A stretch of DNA of 40,515 nucleotides, taken from positions 1 to 40,515 of IMG/VR virus record IMGVR_UViG_3300010396_000031, one strand, 5' to 3'. The notes under the pieces are model-generated. The model searched no databases, was not told where the DNA came from, and saw only the letters and a program-made list of their open reading frames with translations. Origin of the DNA: a virus. The stretch's first letter is position 1. Each line of letters opens with the position of its first letter. Position numbers and translations under genes: made by a program. Positions 8,306 to 38,660 of this stretch are shown in pieces.

Positions 8306-9644
8306 CGCCTGGCGGGCCGAGGGGCCGGCCGGGTTCGCCGCCGACGCGCTCGGCGCGCAACCGACGGAGCAGCAGTGGGAGGCGAGTCGCGCGCTCGTCG
8401 CTGGGCGGCGCGTGTCGATCCGCTCGGGTCACGGCTGCGGCAAGACGGCGTTCATGTCCTGGGCGGTGCTGTGGTTCATGTGCACGCGCTTCCCGGCGAA
8501 GGTCGGCTGCACGGCCCCGTCGTCGGCGCAGATCGACGTGGCGCTCTGGCCGGAGCTGGCGCTCTGGCATCGCCGGCTGTGCGAGCGCATGCCTCCGCTG
8601 GGTGCCGAGTTCGCGTGGAACAAAAGCACCTTCGAGATGATCTCGGCGCCGCAGGAATCGTTCGCGGTCGCGCGCACCTCACGGCCGGAGCAACCGGAAG
8701 CGCTGCAGGGATTGCACTCGGAGAACGTGCTGTTCCTGCTCGACGAGGCGTCGGGCATTCCCGACGGCGTGTTCCAGCCGGTGGAGGGCTCGCTCTCTAC
8801 GCCCGGCGCGTACGTGCTGATGGCTGGCAACCCCACGCGGATGGCCGGCTATTTCTACGACTCGCATCATTCGCTGCGCGACCACTGGGCGGCGCTGCAC
8901 TGGGACGGCGAGGAAAGCCCGCTCGTTAGCCGCGAGTTCATCGACCACGAGCGCGCCGTCTACGGCGCCGATAGCGCGGTCTACCGGATTCGCGTCAAGG
9001 GCGAGTTCGCGGGCTCGCTCGATGGCGTCATCCCGCTGGAACTGATCGAGTCGGCCTACGCGCGTGACGTGCGCGTGTTCGGGCCGATCCGCTGGGGCTT
9101 GGACGTCGCGCGCTTCGGCGACGATCGCACGGCGCTGTGCAAGCGCCACGGCAACGCGCTGCTCGAGCCGGTGCAGACCTGGCGCGGGCGCGACACCATG
9201 CAGGTTGCTGGGCTCGTCGTCAACGAGTACGCGGACGCCGAGAAGAAGCCGGAGGCGATTTGCGTGGATGTGATCGGCCTAGGCGCTGGCGTCGTCGACC
9301 GGCTCGCCGAGGAAGGCTTGCCGGTGGTCGGCGTGAACGTGGCCGAATCGCCAGCGGTGACGCAGCACTACGCACGCCTGCGCGACGAACTGTGGTTCGA
9401 GGCGCGGGCGTGGTTCGAGGGTCGGGACGTGCGCATGTGTCGTGACGAGGCGCTGGTCGCCGAGCTCACGGCGCCCAATTTCAAGCTACTCAGCACGGGG
9501 AAGAAACAGGTCGAGCCGAAGGATGAGACGAAGAAGCGCATCAGCCGCAGCCCGGACATCGCCGACGCGTTCGTGCTCACCTTCGCCCGCGGCATCGCCT
9601 CGCACCGGGGCGCGCTCAAATACCCGGCGATGAGCTATGCCTAG
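8286..9644 (+). CDS. terL: Terminase large subunit, 452 aa
   Basis: A 452-residue packaging motor. The ATPase has Walker A SGHGCGKT (residues 47-54) and Walker B VLFLLDE (148-154). MAGNPTR (179-185) is the coupling motif. The RNase H-like nuclease domain shows D273 (GLDVARFGDDRT), D328 (VDVIGLGAG) and the SPDIADA segment (422-428). Length fits the family. GTG at 8286 overlaps the small subunit gene by 20 bp, giving translational coupling. No cos-like ends are visible, and with the circular permutation a headful mechanism is likely. Confidence 0.95.
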   Translation: MSLARVDAWRAEGPAGFAADALGAQPTEQQWEASRALVAGRRVSIRSGHGCGKTAFMSWAVLWFMCTRFPAKVGCTAPSSAQIDVALWPELALWHRRLCERMPPLGAEFAWNKSTFEMISAPQESFAVARTSRPEQPEALQGLHSENVLFLLDEASGIPDGVFQPVEGSLSTPGAYVLMAGNPTRMAGYFYDSHHSLRDHWAALHWDGEESPLVSREFIDHERAVYGADSAVYRIRVKGEFAGSLDGVIPLELIESAYARDVRVFGPIRWGLDVARFGDDRTALCKRHGNALLEPVQTWRGRDTMQVAGLVVNEYADAEKKPEAICVDVIGLGAGVVDRLAEEGLPVVGVNVAESPAVTQHYARLRDELWFEARAWFEGRDVRMCRDEALVAELTAPNFKLLSTGKKQVEPKDETKKRISRSPDIADAFVLTFARGIASHRGALKYPAMSYA

Positions 9645-12054
9645 CGGCCAGCGCATCGACGAAAACGGCCTCAAGGCCCTGATCGACGACGAGGTCAACA
9701 TCGCCCTCGGCTACGTCGGCAAGCTCTCGGCGCAGCGGCAGAAGGCGCTCTATTACTACTTCGGCGAGGCGAAGTACGAACTGCTGCCGCCCGAGGTCGA
9801 CGGCCGCTCGTCGGTAGTCTCGAACGATGTCTGCGATGTCGTCGAGTGGATGCTGCCGGGGCTGCTCAAGGTGTTCTGCGGCAGCGATGAGGCGGTGCAG
9901 TGCGAGCCCGAGACGGAGGCCGACATTCCCGCGGCCGAGCAGGCGACGAGCTACGCGAATTACGTGTTCTACCGCCAGAATCCGGGCTTCCAGATCATGC
10001 ACAACTGGATCAAGGACGCCCTGATCGAGAAGGCGGGGATCGTCAAGGTCTGGTGGGACACCCGCGAGGACGTGGCGCGGGAGGAATACGAAGGGCTGAC
10101 GCTCGCCGAATTGAGCGACATCCTGCGCGATAAGGCGGTTGAGGTCGTCGACCAGCGCGAGTATCCGGATCCCGACTGGCAGGCGCCGCAGATGGCGCCC
10201 TCGGCGCCCGGAATGGCCCCGCCAGCGCCTGCGGCACAAGGGATGGCACCTGCGATGCCACCGATGCCGCCGGGCGCGCCACAGGCTGTTTCTGCGCCTC
10301 CGGGCGGCATGCCGCAGCCGGGGATGGTGCCGATGGAGCCCCCGCAGCCGCCGATGCTCTACGACGTGACGCTGCGGCGCACCAAGCGTTCGCAGAAAGT
10401 CTGCGTCGAGAACGTGCCGCCGGAGGAATTCCTGATCTCGCGCCGCGCGCGGACGATTCAGGAACCGTACTTCATCGGGCAGCGGGTGCGGCGCTCGGCG
10501 TCGGACCTGATTGCGATGGGTTACTCGCAGAAGCAGGTGGACGCCATCGGCTATGACGATCTCGGCGCCGAGTGGAACCAGGAGCGGATCGAGCGCCTGT
10601 CCTATGACGACGAGTGGCCCGGCTTCCGGCAGGAGACGGGCGGCGATCCGTCGCGGCGCGAGATGTGGCTGATCGAAGGCTATCTCAACGTCGACTACGA
10701 CGGCGACGGGATCGCCGAACTCCGGCGCGTGGTCAAGGCGGGGGATCAACTGCTCGAGAACGAGGCGATCGACGAGCACCCGTTCTGCCTGATTACGCCG
10801 TTCCTGATGCCGCACCGGGTGATCGGCCGTTCGCTCGCCGACGTGACGTTCGACATTCAGCGGATCAACACGGTGCTCCTGCGCCAGTATCTCGACGCCA
10901 CGTACCTGGCGACCAATCCGCGCATGTACGTCGACACGACGCAGGGGGTCAATCTCGACGACCTGTTGACCGTGCGGCCGGGCGGGATCGTGCGCGGCAA
11001 GGGGCCGAACGCGGTCACGCCGTTGCAGATCCCGGACGTGGGCGCGGTCGCCTTGCAGGGCCTGCAGTTCATGCAGGAGCTGCGCGAGAACCGCACCGGC
11101 GTCACCAAGCAGACGCAGGGGATCGACCCGGACGCACTGCAGCGCACGGCAACCGGCGTCAACGCCATGCTCGGTGCCAGCAACCAGCGCATGGAGCTGA
11201 TCGCGCGCAACTTCGCCGAAACCGGCGTGCGCGACCTGTTCCGCAAGATCCTCAAGCTCGGCGCGCAGTACGCGCAGCAGCCGGTGATGCTGCGGCTGAA
11301 TGGCAAGTTCGTGCCGGTCGATCCGCGCGAGTGGAAGACGCAGTTCGACATCACAATCAACGTCGGCCTCGGGACCGGGACGAAGGATCAGCAGATGCAG
11401 CACCTGATGCTGATCCTGCAGGCGCAGCAGCAGGCGATTCAACTCGGCGTAGCGACGCCGGAGAACGTCTACGAGGCGTTGAGCGAGCTTACCAAGGCGG
11501 CGGGCTTCAAGGAAGTGTCGAAGTTCTGGACTGATCCGAAGACGGTCCCGCCGCAGCCGCCGCAGCCGCCGTTGCCGCTGATGGTCGAACAGATGAAGGC
11601 GCAATACGCATTGCAGGCCGATCAGGCGAAGGCGCAGGGGCAGGCGCAGGCCGATACCGCGCGTGCGCAGGCGGATCAACAGATTCAGCTGGCGAAGGTG
11701 CAGTCGGACGCGGCGCTCGACAAAGCGAAGACCGAGATGCAGCTGCAACTCGACGACGTGCGCCACAGTCGCGAGCAGGACACGGAGATTCGGCTGGCGA
11801 GCATCAGGGCGGCCGCGCAGGTCGCGGCGGCACGTATCGCGGCGGGGATCGACGACGGCTCGGCGGTGCTCCATGCCGAGCTGATGGGCGCGGGTGAGGC
11901 GACGGCGGCATCGCAGCTGCATGGGCGCGTCGATGCGCTGACCGCGCATGTCGGGGCGCTGGCGCAGGCGGTGCAGGCGGCGCAGCAGCCGAAGCGGTTT
12001 CGGATCGTGCGTGACGCCACGGGGCGCGCGCAGGGCGTGGAGACGGTGCAATGA
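9637..12054 (+). CDS. Portal protein (P22-like), 805 aa
   Basis: An 805-residue portal is recognised by the podoviral type sequences ADIPAAEQATSYANYVFY, FISRRA-type clip region (PPEEFLISRRARTI), VRRSASDLIAMGYS and TGVTKQTQGIDPDALQRTATG. It forms the dodecameric channel at the packaging vertex. Two unusual parts: a Pro/Ala/Met/Gln-rich insertion at about residues 183-243, and a long Gln/Ala coiled-coil C-terminus (about 645-740) as in the P22 barrel. The start overlaps the terminase gene by eight bases. Very long for a portal, mainly because of these two parts. Confidence 0.92.
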   Translation: MPSGQRIDENGLKALIDDEVNIALGYVGKLSAQRQKALYYYFGEAKYELLPPEVDGRSSVVSNDVCDVVEWMLPGLLKVFCGSDEAVQCEPETEADIPAAEQATSYANYVFYRQNPGFQIMHNWIKDALIEKAGIVKVWWDTREDVAREEYEGLTLAELSDILRDKAVEVVDQREYPDPDWQAPQMAPSAPGMAPPAPAAQGMAPAMPPMPPGAPQAVSAPPGGMPQPGMVPMEPPQPPMLYDVTLRRTKRSQKVCVENVPPEEFLISRRARTIQEPYFIGQRVRRSASDLIAMGYSQKQVDAIGYDDLGAEWNQERIERLSYDDEWPGFRQETGGDPSRREMWLIEGYLNVDYDGDGIAELRRVVKAGDQLLENEAIDEHPFCLITPFLMPHRVIGRSLADVTFDIQRINTVLLRQYLDATYLATNPRMYVDTTQGVNLDDLLTVRPGGIVRGKGPNAVTPLQIPDVGAVALQGLQFMQELRENRTGVTKQTQGIDPDALQRTATGVNAMLGASNQRMELIARNFAETGVRDLFRKILKLGAQYAQQPVMLRLNGKFVPVDPREWKTQFDITINVGLGTGTKDQQMQHLMLILQAQQQAIQLGVATPENVYEALSELTKAAGFKEVSKFWTDPKTVPPQPPQPPLPLMVEQMKAQYALQADQAKAQGQAQADTARAQADQQIQLAKVQSDAALDKAKTEMQLQLDDVRHSREQDTEIRLASIRAAAQVAAARIAAGIDDGSAVLHAELMGAGEATAASQLHGRVDALTAHVGALAQAVQAAQQPKRFRIVRDATGRAQGVETVQ

Positions 12055-12251
12055 CGCGAATGGTGGATACGACGAAGGGGCCGATTGCATTCGATCGGCT
12101 GGTCATCAAAGAGGTGCACGCGAGCGGCGACAACGACGAGTCGATCGCGCGCGAGTGGTATCTCGACGGCGAGCTGGTCCGTCGCGATGCGTGGGTGACG
12201 CTGCTGCGGGGCAACCCGACGCGGGCCGAACAAGGGGCAATCAATGGCTAA
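12051..12251 (+). CDS. Small protein after portal, 66 aa
   Basis: A 66-residue protein (MTRMVDTTKGPIAFDRLV) overlaps the portal stop by four bases and the next gene by eight. It has a beta-strand-rich look (REWYLDGELVRRDAWVTLL). No family recognised. Could be a minor structural or assembly factor by position. Confidence 0.65.
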   Translation: MTRMVDTTKGPIAFDRLVIKEVHASGDNDESIAREWYLDGELVRRDAWVTLLRGNPTRAEQGAING

Positions 12252-25346: not shown

Positions 25347-26405
25347 ATGGCGAGCGGCGCTCCGGTTTCTGCCCCGCTGACGAATCTCAGCTACTGGAAC
25401 AGCGGCTTCGTCTCGCCCGACGAGGCGAACGGTGCCGGCGGTCAGGCGTTCCTTGCGGCGCTCAGGAAGTACGACCCGAACGCGGCGTTCGTCTCGGCCG
25501 GACTGAACTCGACGGAGGGCGGCGGCAACAACTATCTGGCGCTCAACTTCGATCCGTCGAAGCTGCCGGGGATGAGCGGCGCCGGACAGCTTTCGAGCGG
25601 ACCGAGTGCGGCGCCGGGACAGATCGGCCGGACGTTCGCGCCGAACTTTTCGTCGGTCGTGAATCCCGACCAGGTCAAGAGCGCGGGCGACATCGTCAAC
25701 TCGCCGACGTACGGCAATGTCGCGCTGAACACGAATTTCAAGCCGCAGAACAACGGCATGTTCGATCTACTCGCGCTCCTGCCGCTCGGCCTCGGCGTCG
25801 CCGGCATGGCCGGTCTGCTGCCGACCTTCGGCGCGACCGGCGCGGATGCCGCTGCGGGGGCGGCGGGATCGGGCGCTGCGGGCACCGCGGGACTTGGCGG
25901 CTACGTCGGTCCGGACGTGAGCGGCGCGCTCCCTGCGGCGGATCTCTCGACCTTCGGCGCGACCACGCCGACGGTGGGCGCCGGCGCGGACGCGATCGGC
26001 GCGGCCGGTGCGGGGGCAGCCGGTGCGGCGGCACCGATCGTCGACGAGAGCACGCAGGCGCCGCTGTGGGAATCGGTCGCCGCGCGTCTCGGCATTCCGG
26101 TTGGCAACAGCGCGCTGTCGACGCTGGGAAGCGCTGCAAGCCTGTTCGGGCACGCTCTGCAAGCCGGCAACGCCGTCAGCGGTTTGTTCGGCGGCTCGCC
26201 ACTTACCGGCGCGACGGGGGGGGGCGCAGGGGGCGGAGGGGGCGCAATCAATCTCGGCGGTTCGCGCCAGATCGCCGACGCGGGGTCGCTGCTGCGCGCG
26301 TTCTACGCGCCGCGCGTCAAGGGCTCGGGGCAGGGCAGTGAAGCGCTCGACCCGAACAATCCGATGTCGCTTCTTCCACTTCGCATGATGGGACTACTCT
26401 CGTGA
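25347..26405 (+). CDS. Ala/Gly-rich virion protein, 352 aa
   Basis: A 352-residue protein. The first 130 residues are soluble (LSYWNSGFVSPDEANGAGGQ). Residues 145-160 are hydrophobic (LLALLPLGLGVAGMAGLLP), followed by a long Ala/Gly low-complexity part. A membrane-inserting ejected protein is plausible. ATG at 25347 begins one base after the preceding stop. A plus-strand G-run near 26217-26225 encodes Gly and may be slippage-prone. Confidence 0.62.
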   Translation: MASGAPVSAPLTNLSYWNSGFVSPDEANGAGGQAFLAALRKYDPNAAFVSAGLNSTEGGGNNYLALNFDPSKLPGMSGAGQLSSGPSAAPGQIGRTFAPNFSSVVNPDQVKSAGDIVNSPTYGNVALNTNFKPQNNGMFDLLALLPLGLGVAGMAGLLPTFGATGADAAAGAAGSGAAGTAGLGGYVGPDVSGALPAADLSTFGATTPTVGAGADAIGAAGAGAAGAAAPIVDESTQAPLWESVAARLGIPVGNSALSTLGSAASLFGHALQAGNAVSGLFGGSPLTGATGGGAGGGGGAINLGGSRQIADAGSLLRAFYAPRVKGSGQGSEALDPNNPMSLLPLRMMGLLS

Positions 26406-27370
26406 CCACTCCGACCATGACGCCGCCGTCGCCGCTGACCTCGTTTCCGAATTACGGCGGCTTCTTTCCCTCGTTCCCGTTCCAGGGCCTCAACAGCCAG
26501 TTCGGTGCGTCGCAGGCGCCGTTCGGCGGTGGCTACGGCGCGTGGGGCATGCCCGGCATGGGCGGCATGGGCATGGGTTATCCGTCGCTGTTCGGTGGCG
26601 GCTTCATGCCGCAGCAGTACGGCAATCCGGGCGCGGGGATGGGCGGCATGCCGGGCGCGGGAATGGGCGGCATGATGGGGGCCGGGACCGCCTATCCGGG
26701 CGGCTCCGCGACCTTCAACGAGAACCCCGGTTTTCCATTCGGCTCCGGTACGGGGATGCCGGGAGGAGGCGCCGCGTCCCCGCCGATGCAGCAACTCGGG
26801 GCGATGGGGTCTGGGACAACCGGGATGCAGGCGCCTGGCAATCCGGGCGCGGCGTTGCAGCAGTTCCCGAACGGTGCGATGACGCCGCCGGGGGCCGCGA
26901 ACGGCGCCTCGCCGGCGCCGCAAGCTCCGAGCGCTGCCAACTTCGGCGCGCCGCCGTCCTTCAACGCCACGCAACTCGCGCAGGCGAACGGCGTGAGCCC
27001 AGGCCTCGCCGACTTCATGCTCAATCACAACCAGGGCAATCCGAGCGCGAATCAGCAGTTCGAGCAGGCCGCGGGGTTCACGAATCCCGCGGGCAGTCAG
27101 ACGGCGCTCAATCAGGCCGGCCGCAATTGGATCATGAACAACGAGCAATCGTACGGCAACATCAACGCCGACGCCGGGCAGGCATCGCCGCACGGCCACA
27201 TGGGCTACGGCATGGACGGGAACACGCCGTACTCGTACTCGCTCGGGCAGGCAGCGACCAATCCGGCGCTCCAGCAATGGCTGCTGCGCGCGCGCAGCGG
27301 CCTCAACGCGGGACCGCCCCCGACCGGCGCGAACCTGTACGGCCAGTTCGCTGGCGGCTCGGGAGGCTAG
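26402..27370 (+). CDS. Gly/Met-rich virion protein, 322 aa
   Basis: A 322-residue protein has an extreme Gly/Met/Pro/Phe low-complexity N-terminal half (WGMPGMGGMGMGYPSLFGGG, GAGMGGMPGAGMGGMMGAG) and a helical C-terminus with a repeated NQGNPSANQQFEQAAGF-type segment. GTG start overlapping the preceding stop by four. Flexible or phase-separating parts are suggested by composition. Role as ejection protein is inferred from its position. Confidence 0.62.
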   Translation: MTTPTMTPPSPLTSFPNYGGFFPSFPFQGLNSQFGASQAPFGGGYGAWGMPGMGGMGMGYPSLFGGGFMPQQYGNPGAGMGGMPGAGMGGMMGAGTAYPGGSATFNENPGFPFGSGTGMPGGGAASPPMQQLGAMGSGTTGMQAPGNPGAALQQFPNGAMTPPGAANGASPAPQAPSAANFGAPPSFNATQLAQANGVSPGLADFMLNHNQGNPSANQQFEQAAGFTNPAGSQTALNQAGRNWIMNNEQSYGNINADAGQASPHGHMGYGMDGNTPYSYSLGQAATNPALQQWLLRARSGLNAGPPPTGANLYGQFAGGSGG

Positions 27371-27373
27371 GCG

Positions 27374-29149
27374 ATGGCCGACGCGGTCGCGTTCGATCCG
27401 ACGCAGGCATTGAACGGCCTGCAGGGGCTGCTCGGCCAGTTCGGGCCGTCGCAGGCAGACATCGCGGCGGCGAACAAGGCGCGGCTGATGGACATCGCCG
27501 CCGGCTTGCTCGGCGCACGCCGCGGCTTCGAGTTCTCGGCGCTCGGGCAGGGGCTCGAGAAAGGTCAGGCCGACTACGCGAACATGCTGAAGACGCTGCC
27601 AGCGATTCGGGCGACGAATCTGCAATCGCTGTTGCCGCTCGCGCAGATGAACATGCGGATGCAGATGCTCAACAACTTCACCGGCGCGCTCAACGCCGCG
27701 CAGCAGCCGACGACGGTTCCCGGCCCGGATGCGACGTTCCAGAGCGGCCCGCGCACGGCAGCCGACGCCTTCACCGGCAACGCGCCGCCGCCCGTGAACC
27801 TGCCGACGCAGCAGCAGGTGCCGGCTGGATCGGTCGATCCGTCGCTCCGTCAGCGGCTGGCGCAGGCGAACCTCGGGCTGTCGATGTTCGGCGTCAACGC
27901 GACGCCAGCGCTGCAGTTCATGTTCCCGCAGCCGGTGCGCGTGAATCAGGGCGGCGGCGTCTATGATCCGGCGCATGGCACGTTCAACGTGATCCCGAAG
28001 GCGCCCGAGGGCGCGCAGCCGGTGCAGGGGCCGGACGGCCAATGGCACATCGAAGTCGTACCCGGCGCGCTCGGCGCGGAAGGGGCGGTTTCCGGCACAC
28101 GCGCGGGGGCATCGGCGGTAGGCGCTGCGATGGGAAAACTCCCGCACCCGCTGGTCGACAACCAGACCGGCCGCGACTTCCTGCCGAGCGGTGCGCTCTA
28201 CAGTCAGCTTTACCCGCGCGGCGATCCGTTCGGGATCGGCATGGGCGCGAACGTTGCGCCGGCTGCAACGGCCGCTGCCGTGGCACCGGGAGCGGCGAAC
28301 GCTGCCGCTGCGCCGGCGCCGCAAGGGGCTGCCCCGCAGGGACCGACCGCCGCGCCCTCGCCGGGGGCAACGACCGAGCTCTCGCCCGAGCAAGAGGAAA
28401 CGTTCAAGAACGCGGCCGAGTTCGAGAAGGCGGCGCACGTCGCCGCAGACGCGGCCTCGACGCAAGAGGGGCGCTTGAACGAGATGCGCCAACTGCTCAC
28501 CTACTTCAAGCCGTCGCCGTGGCTGCCGCTGGAAGCGAAGGCCGGCGGCTATCTGCAGGCGATCCCTGGAATCGGCAACCGGCTGGCGAGCGCGTTCGTC
28601 CCCAACGCGGCGACGGCGCTTCCCGCCATCCAGGCGTTCACCAAGAACACGATCCAGTTCGCCGCCGATCAGTCGCGCGTGCTCGGCTCGCGCGAAGCCG
28701 CGCAGATCGTGCAGATGCTGCGCGATGCCAACCCGAACATCGGCATGGTGCCGGGCGCGCCGCAGACCGTCATGGCGTTCATGAGTGGCATGAACAGGTA
28801 CGTGCTCGACACCGAGCAGAACATGATGAAGTGGAAGCAGGCCAACGGGACCGTGAATGGCTTCAAGGAGGCGTGGCACGCGTCGCACCCGATGACTTCC
28901 TACCTGCCGCCGCTGTCGGCGCTGCAGAACATCGCGCAGGGGAAACCGCCGGGCATTGACCTCACCAGCGGCGCACCCTCGGGCGCCGCGCCGGATGCCG
29001 CCCCGCAAGGCACCGCGTCCACCCCGATGCCCGCGTTCACGCTGACCGACAAGGGGCGCGCCAATCCGACGTTGCAGGCGCTCTTGAAGCGCGAGACGCC
29101 GAACGCGCAGCAGTTGCAGATCCTGCGGCTTAACGGCCTCGTGCAGTAG
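27374..29149 (+). CDS. Large internal virion / ejection protein, 591 aa
   Basis: A 591-residue protein. Residues 1-120 are helical (ALNGLQGLLGQFGPSQADIA, MNMRMQMLNNFTGALNAAQ), a Pro/Ala/Gly linker follows (about 300-335), then a helical region (EEETFKNAAEFEKAAHVAA) and an extended domain with IQFAADQSRVLGSREAAQIV. No enzymatic motif found. Podoviruses place DNA-ejection proteins here, so this role is inferred. Confidence 0.66.
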   Translation: MADAVAFDPTQALNGLQGLLGQFGPSQADIAAANKARLMDIAAGLLGARRGFEFSALGQGLEKGQADYANMLKTLPAIRATNLQSLLPLAQMNMRMQMLNNFTGALNAAQQPTTVPGPDATFQSGPRTAADAFTGNAPPPVNLPTQQQVPAGSVDPSLRQRLAQANLGLSMFGVNATPALQFMFPQPVRVNQGGGVYDPAHGTFNVIPKAPEGAQPVQGPDGQWHIEVVPGALGAEGAVSGTRAGASAVGAAMGKLPHPLVDNQTGRDFLPSGALYSQLYPRGDPFGIGMGANVAPAATAAAVAPGAANAAAAPAPQGAAPQGPTAAPSPGATTELSPEQEETFKNAAEFEKAAHVAADAASTQEGRLNEMRQLLTYFKPSPWLPLEAKAGGYLQAIPGIGNRLASAFVPNAATALPAIQAFTKNTIQFAADQSRVLGSREAAQIVQMLRDANPNIGMVPGAPQTVMAFMSGMNRYVLDTEQNMMKWKQANGTVNGFKEAWHASHPMTSYLPPLSALQNIAQGKPPGIDLTSGAPSGAAPDAAPQGTASTPMPAFTLTDKGRANPTLQALLKRETPNAQQLQILRLNGLVQ

Positions 29150-30996
29150 TGGACAACTACGGCTTCCCCGTGAGCGCGGGGCCAGTGCCGAATCCGCGCG
29201 TGCCATTGAGCGCGCAGGCGGCGATCCTGCAGAACGAGTACGCGAAGGTGCTGGCGCAGCCGGACTCGCCGCAGCGCGCGCAGAACCTGCAGGCGCTCAC
29301 GACGGAAATGCAGCGCTATCGCGTGGCACCGGTGCCGGCGAGCCTCGACGCGTTCACGGCTGCGCTGCCAACGCAGGCGCCCGCAGCGAACGCGACTGCC
29401 GCGCCGGGCGATCTCGCGTCCTTCACGAGCGCGCTGCCCATGCAGGGCGACGCAGGCGCAGCCGCGACGGACGCGAGTTCACGGTCGTCTTCCGTCGGTC
29501 CCGCGCTCGGCACACTGGCGCGGCGCCTGGTCACGATGGGACCGGCCGGCGTCCTTGCGGACGTTGGTGTCGGTGCTATCAAGGGCCTCGGCTCGCTCGC
29601 TGAGATTGGCGGCGCTGCGATCGGCGAACGCGCTCCGGTGCAAGCCGCGGAACGCTGGTTCGCGAATAAAGCGGCGCAGAAATTCGGCACGCTCCCCGGC
29701 TCGGCGTTCGCGCAGTCCGTCGGCCAGTCGCTGCCAGCGCTCGCCGTCCCCGGACTCGGCGAAGGCGTGCTTGCAACTGCGCTGCGCGGAGGCATGCAGG
29801 GCCTGCTCGCCAACGCGGCGACGCCATCCTACGACGTGCCAGATGCCTCGTACTGGCAGACGAAAGCCGCGCAAGCAAACGAGGGCGCGGAAATGGGGGG
29901 CGCGATGGCCGGCGGCTTCGGGCTGCTCGGCAAGCTTGCCGGCCCGACCGCGCCTGCTGCGTCCCTCATCAAGCAGGGCATCACGCCGACCATTGGCCAG
30001 ACGATCGGGGGTGCTGCGAAGGCGCTGGAGGAAAAGCTGTCGTCGGTGCCGATCCTGGGCGACGCGATCAAGTCTGCACAGGCATCCGGGCTCGACGACT
30101 TCAATCGCGCGATCTACAACCGCGTGCTCGCGCCATTGGGCCAGAACTACAGCGGTCCGGTCGGGCAGCCCGCGCTGGCGAGTCTCAGGAACTCCCTCGG
30201 CAACGCCTACGAAACCACGCTCGCACGCATGAGCCCATCGCCGCTGACGAACGAGTTTACGAGCGGCATCGACTCACTGCGCTCGATGCTCGCGTCGCGG
30301 CCGGCCGCGCTGCAGACGTTCGATAACGCGATCAACGGCGATCTCTGGCCGCGCTTCACCGAGGCGAATACGCTCACGCCGTCCGCGCTCAAGGACGCCG
30401 ACAGTGCGCTTGGCTCGACCGTGCGCGACTACATCGGCAGCAACGACGCAGACCAGCGGGCTGCGGCTCGCGCGCTCGCGCAGGCACAAAGCGGCCTGCG
30501 CCAGATGGCGGCGCAAGCGAACCCCGAGCAGGCGCCCGTGCTCAATGCGATCAACAACGGGTACGGCCAGCTCGTGCAACTGCAGAACGCCGCGAAAACG
30601 GTCAAGGTCGCGCGAAACGAGGGCGTCGTGACGCCGGCGGACTACCTGCGGGGTATCAAAAGCGGCGACAACAGCGTGCGCGACAACGTGTTCAGCAGCG
30701 GTGGCGCGCGCAATCAGGACTTCGCGCAGACGGCGGACAGAGTGCTGTCGAGCGTCTATCCTGACTCGGGAACGGCGGGGCGCGGTCTAATGGCGGCGGC
30801 GTTGACCGCCGGGTTAGCGCACGAACTGCCGACGAACCTGCTGCTCGGTGCGGGCGCGGCGACGCTACCTTACCTGCCGCTGCTCCGGCGGGCGGCCGTC
30901 ATGCTTCCGCGGACGATCGGCGCGACCGCCGCTCTCGCACCTTACGCGGCGCTAGGTTCTCCCGCTGCCGCTGGGCTGCTTGCTCCGCGCCCGTAG
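29149..30996 (+). CDS. Large Ala-rich ejection-type protein, 615 aa
   Basis: A 615-residue protein begins with GTG overlapping the preceding TAG. Residues 115-160 and 235-265 are Gly/Ala-rich amphipathic or membrane-active stretches (GPAGVLADVGVGAIKGLGSL, GGAMAGGFGLLGKLAG), and the C-terminus holds further hydrophobic segments (LPTNLLLGAGAATLPYLPL). The pattern resembles proteins that form a conduit in the cell envelope. The last virion gene before the lysis module. Confidence 0.66.
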   Translation: MDNYGFPVSAGPVPNPRVPLSAQAAILQNEYAKVLAQPDSPQRAQNLQALTTEMQRYRVAPVPASLDAFTAALPTQAPAANATAAPGDLASFTSALPMQGDAGAAATDASSRSSSVGPALGTLARRLVTMGPAGVLADVGVGAIKGLGSLAEIGGAAIGERAPVQAAERWFANKAAQKFGTLPGSAFAQSVGQSLPALAVPGLGEGVLATALRGGMQGLLANAATPSYDVPDASYWQTKAAQANEGAEMGGAMAGGFGLLGKLAGPTAPAASLIKQGITPTIGQTIGGAAKALEEKLSSVPILGDAIKSAQASGLDDFNRAIYNRVLAPLGQNYSGPVGQPALASLRNSLGNAYETTLARMSPSPLTNEFTSGIDSLRSMLASRPAALQTFDNAINGDLWPRFTEANTLTPSALKDADSALGSTVRDYIGSNDADQRAAARALAQAQSGLRQMAAQANPEQAPVLNAINNGYGQLVQLQNAAKTVKVARNEGVVTPADYLRGIKSGDNSVRDNVFSSGGARNQDFAQTADRVLSSVYPDSGTAGRGLMAAALTAGLAHELPTNLLLGAGAATLPYLPLLRRAAVMLPRTIGATAALAPYAALGSPAAAGLLAPRP

Positions 30997-37168: not shown

Positions 37169-37482
37169 CGCTCCCCCTCTGCCGCGATCATCGCGTCGGC
37201 CCATTTAAAGCATTCGCGCGCTATCTCATGGATGGATCGGATCGTCCATCCGCCGCTATCTCTAACGATGCCCTGCATCGCCGCCATCGCATACCGCTGC
37301 CTGAGCGTCGGCTCGCTCGGCGCTGGCGCGGGCGCAAGGTCGGGCGCGGCGTCGAAGGCGGCGATGAGGGCCATTCGCATATCGCTCGCAACGTCCGCCG
37401 ACATGCACGTTAGGTAGGCATTCGCGGCCGCTTGGACCATCTTCTCCGTCGGCTCGCGCGCGATCAACTTCGTGTCGGTCAT
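37165..37482 (-). CDS. Conserved-looking early protein, 105 aa
   Basis: A 105-residue protein (MTDTKLIAREPTEKMVQAAA) with the frequent phage pattern PTEKMVQAAANAY, a Pro/Ala linker, and a helical C-terminus with WTIRSIHEIARECFKWADAM. I have seen this PTxxMIxAA type in many phages without assigned function. Overlaps the methyltransferase stop and the coiled-coil gene start by four bases. Confidence 0.7.
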   Translation of the reverse strand: MTDTKLIAREPTEKMVQAAANAYLTCMSADVASDMRMALIAAFDAAPDLAPAPAPSEPTLRQRYAMAAMQGIVRDSGGWTIRSIHEIARECFKWADAMIAAEGER

Positions 37483-38660
37483 TGTGTTGCCTCCTTGTAT
37501 GCCTCGATGAACGCTCGCGCCTGCTCGGCGACGATGGCGTTGCCGTAGCCTCGGAGCCGCATCACGCGCGCCTCCGCCGTGTCGTCAACCTCCGGTGCGC
37601 CGCAATCGCCGCCTCGTCCCATTCTTTCGGCAGCGCCATCAACCAACGGGAGAGCGCCGGGTTTAACTGCCCGCGCCTTGCCGTCGCGGCAGGGGAGCCA
37701 GATGGCGTCGCGCCAGAATCCGTTAGCAGCGCCTGGCGACCGAGCAGCGCATTCACAGGCACCGCCTTGAGACTGCACGCGCCGTCCTTGTGATCGCGGC
37801 TCGTCGGCGTCGCCCATGACGCCGCGTCCGTCAGCGTCGCCCCCGCGTGATGCTGCGATTCTGGATTGGAGCGCGTCGCCGTCGCGTTCGCTGCGCTCGC
37901 GCCATCGGCTTTCGTCGGAGTCGGCCACGGTGACAGGCTCGCCGCCATGCCGAGCGCCATCCCGAAGCCGTTGCCGTTGATGCCCTTCGCCTTCACTTCC
38001 TCGCGGCGCGCTTCCCAATTCGAGTCCGTGTCGTTCTGCGGACCCGCGTTCGGACTCGGCCACGGCGCGAGCGTCGCCTGATCCTGCAAGTTCAGCGCGT
38101 GGCCTGCCGCGATCCGTTCGTCCGCATCCTGGCCGCCGCGCTCCGCGTTCTGCGCTGCTGGACTGCGCCACGAAGTAAACGCGCTGTCGGATGTGCGGTG
38201 CGCCGATGCTCGCAGCCGGAAAATCGACCGCCCCGACGGCGTAACCAAGCGACTCAAGCGATAGGCAAACATCGTCGAGCCATCCAGTTCGCACCGCTGC
38301 ATCAACCTGCTCGCCAAAGACTGTTGCAGGGCGGCACTCGCGGATGAGCCGGTGCCAGTGCGGCCATAGGTGGCGCTCGTCCGCGTAGCCGTCGCCTTTT
38401 CCAGCGGCGCTGAACGGCTGGCAGGGGCACGAGCCTGTCCAAACAGGTCGGTCGTCATCCCATCCGGCGAGCCGGAGCGCGTAGGACCAGACGCCGATTC
38501 CGGCGAAGAAATGGCATTGCGCGTATCCGCGCATGTCGTCGGCTCGCACGTCGGCGATGCTTCGCTCATCCACGTCTCCGGGCGCGATCAGGTCGCGGCG
38601 GATCAGCTCGCGCAACCACTCTGCGGCCTTCGGGTCGATCTCGTTGTAGTACGCTGCCAT
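37479..38660 (-). CDS. DNA (cytosine-5) methyltransferase, 393 aa
   Basis: A 393-residue C5-cytosine methyltransferase of the phage group that begins MAAYYNEIDPKAAEWLREL. Motif I FFAGIGVWSY (51-60), catalytic PCQPFS (79-84, Cys80), motif GEQV (116-119) in place of ENV, motif VIII RQRVYFVA (158-165), then a long variable target-recognition region (about 170-300) and the C-terminal FWRDAIWLPCRDGKARAVKP and RLRGYGNAIVAEQARAF. It would protect phage DNA against restriction or regulate. Third-position GC is high at the N-terminus but low in the variable region, where a second frame (37562-38569) looks better. Confidence 0.9.
   Translation of the reverse strand: MAAYYNEIDPKAAEWLRELIRRDLIAPGDVDERSIADVRADDMRGYAQCHFFAGIGVWSYALRLAGWDDDRPVWTGSCPCQPFSAAGKGDGYADERHLWPHWHRLIRECRPATVFGEQVDAAVRTGWLDDVCLSLESLGYAVGAVDFPAASIGAPHIRQRVYFVAQSSSAERGARRPGCGRTDRGRPRAELAGSGDARAVAESERGSAERHGLELGSAPRGSEGEGHQRQRLRDGARHGGEPVTVADSDESRWRERSERDGDALQSRIAASRGGDADGRGVMGDADEPRSQGRRVQSQGGACECAARSPGAANGFWRDAIWLPCRDGKARAVKPGALPLVDGAAERMGRGGDCGAPEVDDTAEARVMRLRGYGNAIVAEQARAFIEAYKEATQ
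37562..38569 (-). CDS. 335-codon ORF nested in the methyltransferase gene (+1 frame)
   Basis: Wholly inside the methyltransferase gene, on the same strand, runs an open frame of 335 codons. It has a recognisable repetitive pattern: TDLFGQARAPASRSAP, SSASAALQQSLASRLMQRC, VTPSGRSIFRLRASAHRTSD, repeated W-x-S/T-P elements (WPSPNAG, WPTPTKAD, WATPTSRDHKDG) and LNPALSRWLMALPKEWDEA. I recall phage proteins with this same sequence order, usually called hypothetical. In the variable part its third-position GC (16 of 19 in a sampled piece) exceeds that of the enzyme frame (10 of 24). Start uncertain (38569 or ATG 38458). It may be an overprinted gene, or a family of false predictions caused by the conserved enzyme. 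Confidence 0.5.
   Translation of the reverse strand: MSEASPTCEPTTCADTRNAISSPESASGPTRSGSPDGMTTDLFGQARAPASRSAPLEKATATRTSATYGRTGTGSSASAALQQSLASRLMQRCELDGSTMFAYRLSRLVTPSGRSIFRLRASAHRTSDSAFTSWRSPAAQNAERGGQDADERIAAGHALNLQDQATLAPWPSPNAGPQNDTDSNWEARREEVKAKGINGNGFGMALGMAASLSPWPTPTKADGASAANATATRSNPESQHHAGATLTDAASWATPTSRDHKDGACSLKAVPVNALLGRQALLTDSGATPSGSPAATARRGQLNPALSRWLMALPKEWDEAAIAAHRRLTTRRRRA

Follow-up and report, generated by a model that had tools for sequence, protein, structure and literature searches.

The analysed DNA, hereinafter designated the window, is the whole of a 40.5-kb virus contig (IMG/VR record IMGVR_UViG_3300010396_000031, 40,515 nt). Two overlapping genes lie on its minus strand. 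The longer gene (37479-38660, 393 aa), hereinafter designated frame 0, encodes a predicted C5-cytosine methyltransferase catalytic subunit, namely the large domain with motifs I, IV, VI, VIII, and X, and matches PF00145 (E 3.4e-16) and phrog_363 (E 1.8e-81). The shorter gene (37562-38569, minus strand, 335 aa) starts with ATG, is nested in the +1 frame of the longer one, and matches phrog_1008 (E 3.5e-21); its product is a proposed target-recognition subunit with a hairpin region, four WPTP units, and motif IX. Nearby genes encode NinB, YqaJ recombinase, and ERF. Both ORFs and their frame relationship are as described in the original prediction, which had also correctly read frame-0 VADSDE as nested PWPTPT and frame-0 GAPHIRQRVYFVA as nested ASAHRTSDSAFTSW.

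The original prediction had further proposed that third-position GC content (GC3) alternates between the two frames. The alternation is confirmed, but the hand counts were slightly off. Specifically, enzyme-frame and nested-frame GC3 are 21/25 and 17/25 at 38360-38435, 9/19 and 14/19 at 38281-38340, and 8/21 and 17/20 at 37977-38040. Over the whole variable region (37712-38170) they are 91/152 and 123/153, and the enzyme frame reaches 27/30 ahead of the nested ATG. Elsewhere in the window, two very long minus-strand ORFs (9616-12090 and 26303-29206) are antisense to long plus-strand ORFs and are probably GC-rich shadow ORFs.

All the PF00145 hallmarks I, IV, VI, VIII, and X are present in the frame-0 chain. 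On the minus strand, motif I (FFAGIG) lies at 38493-38510, motif IV with the catalytic Cys (GSCPCQPFSAAG) at 38400-38435, motif VI (VFGEQV) at 38304-38321, motif VIII (GAPHIRQRVYFVA) at 38166-38204, and motif X (RGYGNAIVAEQ) at 37521-37553, at and past the nested stop. The PCQ of motif IV is invariant in 94 relatives, and the Glu of motif VI is also invariant among relatives. The target-recognition region and motif IX are absent from this chain, and both are located in the nested frame. Consistent with this division, AlphaFold predicts residues 1-171 and about 370-393 (the motif X end) of the frame-0 protein confidently as the large domain, while residues 172-361 are mostly unstructured and of low confidence, where the small domain should sit. 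A Foldseek search with the frame-0 model gave M.HhaI as the top match (E 3.2e-9).

The nested protein contains a conserved hairpin (GSTMFAYRLSRLVTPSGRSIFRLRAS; consensus GSTxxxLTWKxxxTPxGR) at 38204-38281, where frame 0 passes from motif VI to motif VIII. Four putative recognition units follow on the same strand: unit 1 (WRSPAAQ...) at 38063-38170, unit 2 (WPSPNAGPQND..., unit family 15) at 37928-38062, unit 3 (WPTPTKADG...) at 37817-37927, and unit 4 (WATPTSRDHKDG..., unit family 0) at 37712-37816. The strongest conserved nested motif, LNPxFxxWLMGxPxEW (QLNPALSRWLMALPKEWD in the window, 37616-37669, minus strand), resembles C5-methyltransferase motif IX, and it reads as motif IX from its sequence pattern, its position, and its homology to single-chain relatives, in which it aligns with RLAPAFSEWMMGWPAGW ahead of motif X. 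AlphaFold models the nested protein alone poorly (pLDDT 61), except for one helix, the hairpin (strands 101-109 and 115-123, pLDDT about 85-91), and the IX end, as might be expected of a subunit that depends on a partner. A fold search with the nested model gave no significant match, and the nested alignment profile had no match among solved structures. When a single-chain actinophage enzyme was compared with solved structures by phmmer, only motifs I-VIII aligned.

Against synonymous-codon shuffles of the window by itself, an open +1 run of 341 codons stands out only slightly (P=0.037). Among relatives, by comparison, the nested frame is kept open. Of 80 IMG/VR loci gathered by the enzyme alone, all 80 have a nested-frame match and 78 have an unbroken +1 frame; the other two (L017 and L025) have a nested-frame stop inside the variable region. 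For the stop test, codons were shuffled among synonymous positions within each gene, which preserves the enzyme. In 109 non-redundant genes from enzyme, nested-protein, and LNP-pattern scans, +1 stops number 1 against about 168 expected over motifs IV-VIII, 0 against 123 in the variable region, and 0 against 33 in the IX-like motif (the latter two regions together, 0 against 157), with no depletion outside the nested gene (209 against 164 upstream, 127 against 79 downstream). A second set, picked with the nested protein in bacterial genomes, comprises 66 genes, being those of 80 bacterial loci with frame 0 open and motifs detected by script; the other 14 mostly have frame 0 open on inspection. 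The corresponding +1 stops are 0/0/0 against 86/66/19 expected (total 0 against 171), and the +2 frame, used as a control, shows no depletion (681 stops against 613). The nested ORF is a genuine coding sequence and no shadow of the methyltransferase frame.

Frame 0 is likewise kept open. Between motifs VIII and IX, the 109 genes have 0 frame-0 stops against 357 in nested-preserving shuffles, in a set partly chosen for frame-0 openness, and the 66 genes, selected with frame 0 open, have 0 against 223 expected. Among 93 loci picked by the nested motif alone, frame 0 is open in 88. In none of the 80 bacterial loci does a nested gene occur on its own, separate from a methyltransferase frame.

Several loci depart from the common pattern. 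In L038, L039, L042, and L043, frame 0 stops at enzyme codon 58, which in L038 is TAG where its relative L048 has Trp; the nested frame of L038 is still open, and a Thr/Asn codon repeat is of unequal length in L038 and L048. In L164 (about 9793-9900, reverse complement), the recognition region contains a GAGAGA microsatellite that displaces both frames together, possibly reflecting phase variation or an assembly error. Frame 0 of a Dokdonella MAG locus (L370:1736-3606) has a seemingly intein-like insertion at the motif IV cysteine (CPCFPAGTLV...), and its nested frame is open solely downstream of this insertion.

The frame under selection changes along the gene. In 22 disjoint gene pairs chosen by nucleotide similarity, pN/pS at the gene start is 0.19 for the enzyme frame and 1.86 for the nested frame, and over motifs IV-VIII the values are 0.26-0.34 and 1.20-0.79. 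The relation is reversed in the variable region (1.24 and 0.64 for the enzyme frame, 0.32 and 0.53 for the nested frame) and in the IX-like motif (1.04 and 0.19), and it reverts from motif X onwards to the stop (0.23 and 1.58). Codon-position counts in 46 pairs behave in the same way: the most variable enzyme position is the third (72%) before the nested gene and the first (46%) in the variable region, which is the nested third position. Because both measures switch frames by region, the order of constrained frames is 0, +1, 0. Motifs I-VIII and X are under constraint in frame 0; in the variable region and the last motif, the constrained frame is the nested one.

A separate start site serves the nested gene. 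A GGAG ribosome-binding core, a 6-base spacer, and the nested ATG (GGAGACGTGGATG; GGAGacgtggATG) occupy 38567-38579 on the minus strand. Among 108 genes, a nested ATG lies 41 codons ahead of motif IV in 47, against 20.9 expected, with further peaks at −47 and −51 codons. A Shine-Dalgarno core precedes an ATG in the start region in 71 of these 108 genes (21.1 ± 3.9 in shuffles) and in 53 of the 66 genes of the second set (14.6 ± 3.3 expected), with AAAGGAGcattgaagATG as a frequent form. MTDLFG was considered as a conserved nested start and rejected, since it occurs in only a minority of relatives; what is conserved is an ATG some 41-51 codons ahead of motif IV.

Other phages carry, in frame, recognition repeats homologous to the nested units. 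Mycobacterium phage Rita gp76 is a single chain with motifs I-VIII, LLPTP repeats, RLAPAFSEWMMGWPAGW, and motif X. Gordonia phage Upyo divides these elements between gp54 (motifs I-VIII) and gp53 (the repeats, IX, and X). The nested profile matches the C-terminal parts of actinophage enzymes, which hold the target-recognition domain (TRD) and motif IX, with a probability of 97.7 and E 1.7e-12. Individual nested units match in-frame repeats at identities reaching 78% (37 residues, E 7e-14), and the comparison gave 42 matches below 1e-4, against none for shuffled units. Unit 3 of the window shares 53% identity across 34 aa with a recognition repeat from a tandem-type actinophage locus (L268). 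The actinophage loci fall into two classes, one with a single frame (L227-L241) and one with two ORFs in which units, IX, and X are in +1 (L243-L272); a further locus, L154, is a two-ORF intermediate. A natural series is thus seen: a single frame; two ORFs with TRD, IX, and X in +1; tandem genes, as in Upyo gp54/gp53; and the nested arrangement. The N-terminal half of the nested protein has no counterpart in the single-chain relatives examined. In Komagataeibacter phage phiKX1 (L095), a long frame-0 insertion lies between the nested IX region and motif X, and its other frame reads as zinc-finger- or HNH-type-endonuclease-like.

The unit array is modular. Nested arrays contain 1-6 WPTP units per gene (four in the window), each of about 35 aa, with an inner-unit median of 35 residues. 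Average linkage was used for clustering in place of single linkage, which put 258 of 424 units in one family; it gave 42 unit families with three or more members. There are 121 distinct unit arrangements in 139 genes. Up to motif VIII, 49 gene pairs share at least 93% identity; the arrays differ in 28 of these pairs, one of which has identical 5' halves and arrays differing by one inserted unit. The family of window unit 2 (family 15) also occurs in L002, L081, and L007-L009, in first or second position and with different neighbours, while that of window unit 4 (family 0) occupies array positions 1-4 in 16 different arrangements. Such differences between near-identical genes are what exchange of recognition units would be expected to look like. 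Tandem recognition domains between motifs VIII and IX, as in multispecific phage C5 methyltransferases, are present here.

The original prediction had left two branches, a real overprinted protein or a large family of false proteins. On the second reading, GC content and conservation of the enzyme would alone hold the nested frame open, and databases would have filled with spurious entries. The mildly unusual run in the window, the abundance of GC-rich shadow ORFs there, and a nested 5' end with no amino-acid constraint (pN/pS 1.86) fit false proteins, but the missing +1 stops in both gene sets beside an undepleted +2 frame, the conserved SD and ATG, nested pN/pS of 0.19-0.53 where frame 0 is 0.64-1.24, and homologous units in another reading context do not. 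The substitution, stop, and start-site tests rule out a spurious ORF at the family level, and we give this explanation almost no weight. The overprinted-protein branch is borne out by stop depletion, purifying selection in the nested frame, and homologues outside the overlap, found in frame in single-chain actinophage methyltransferases and in Upyo gp53. The accompanying proposal that the enzyme's recognition region and a second protein are constrained together has to be revised, as frame 0 has little or no constraint of its own in the variable region. Rather, the recognition region appears to be none other than the nested protein, so that the two products probably make up a single enzyme, each forming one half.

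Two other explanations accept the nested frame as coding. A double ribosomal frameshift, from 0 to +1 after motif VIII and back to 0 before motif X, would yield a single-chain enzyme, and the selected frame runs 0, +1, 0 in exactly the required order. Such shifting is disfavoured because both frames stay open where it needs neither: the nested frame over motifs IV-VIII, ahead of any point at which a shift would be of use, and frame 0 through the whole recognition region. The nested gene also has its own SD and ATG, and we regard the double frameshift as very improbable. Alternatively, the nested product could be a separate protein with a non-methylation function, e.g., anti-restriction or regulatory, descended from a methyltransferase recognition domain. 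The N-terminal half without a counterpart is in its favour. Against it, frame 0 is predicted to lack a small domain and would be left with no motif IX or TRD, the nested protein keeps both, and the nested gene never stands alone among the 80 bacterial loci; a separate function is very unlikely.

The best explanation, which we hold to be highly probable, is a two-subunit C5 methyltransferase with the recognition subunit overprinted on the catalytic subunit. The analysis shows coding in both frames, an independent start for the nested gene, a domain-by-domain change of the selected frame, and homology between the units and in-frame repeats. A single stretch of DNA would then give rise, by separate translation, to the two polypeptides of one C5-cytosine DNA methyltransferase. 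Specifically, frame 0 would supply the catalytic subunit, with motifs I-VIII and X, the large domain, and a disordered spacer in mid-chain, while the +1 frame, from its own Shine-Dalgarno sequence and ATG, would supply the recognition subunit, whose hairpin, WPTP unit array, and motif IX would form the small domain. The two subunits would assemble into the active enzyme, probably as a heterodimer, which would methylate phage DNA and presumably shield it against host restriction. The unit array would set the methylated site or sites, perhaps with one target per unit.

In M.EcoHK31I, as Lee, Kam and Shaw reportedly described in 1995, the gene for the small subunit lies inside that of the large one in another frame. 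The split architecture is not without precedent because M.EcoHK31I (YGGCCR) divides its motifs likewise, with I-VIII and X on the large polypeptide and IX on the small one (PMC3404938). However, the predicted TRD of M.EcoHK31I is assigned to the large subunit (PMC3404938), whereas here the recognition units, 1-6 and exchangeable, are in the nested frame, and the nested arrangement is spread through many phages, epsilon15 being one example. M.AquI is a C5 enzyme with a natural break after motif VIII, ahead of motif IX (PMC3404938); it differs from the window in having motif X on the small subunit and a divided variable region, and the actinophage tandem type (Upyo, L243-L272) is closer to it than the window is. 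Multispecific Bacillus phage C5 methyltransferases (M.SPRI, M.H2I, and relatives) have several tandem target-recognition domains (PMC8936443), but they are single chains in one frame, whereas the array of the window is a separate nested-frame polypeptide. Rita gp76 and Upyo gp54/gp53 have recognition repeats and a motif IX homologous to the nested protein, in a single frame and in a tandem gene pair whose second member carries motif X, respectively, whereas the window has the nested form.

The nested and frame-0 families, phrog_1008 and phrog_363, are separate 'DNA methyltransferase' families whose mutual overlap is unstated in the fields shown. No phage report of this overlap was found in the literature searched, with most subscription papers outside its reach, and REBASE curators may be aware of part of the arrangement. 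What is new here is the family-scale dual coding, its spread through phages, the placement of the recognition units in the +1 frame, the homology of these units with in-frame repeats elsewhere, and unit shuffling.

A common and misleading annotation pair, 'DNA methyltransferase' and an overlapping 'hypothetical protein', would thus become one enzyme, and the locus type represents a long same-strand overlap selected in both frames at the scale of a family. Frame 0 cloned alone is predicted to yield an enzyme without specificity. There is perhaps an even chance that these loci represent a large, unrecognised class of phage methyltransferases, in which an overprinted specificity subunit carries interchangeable units of about 35 aa, each reading its own target and shuffled between phages with both frames left open, so that swaps would change which restriction systems are escaped. 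If each unit reads a target, the arrays would amount to a naturally occurring catalogue of parts for methylation specificity and would show directly how phages keep pace with host restriction.
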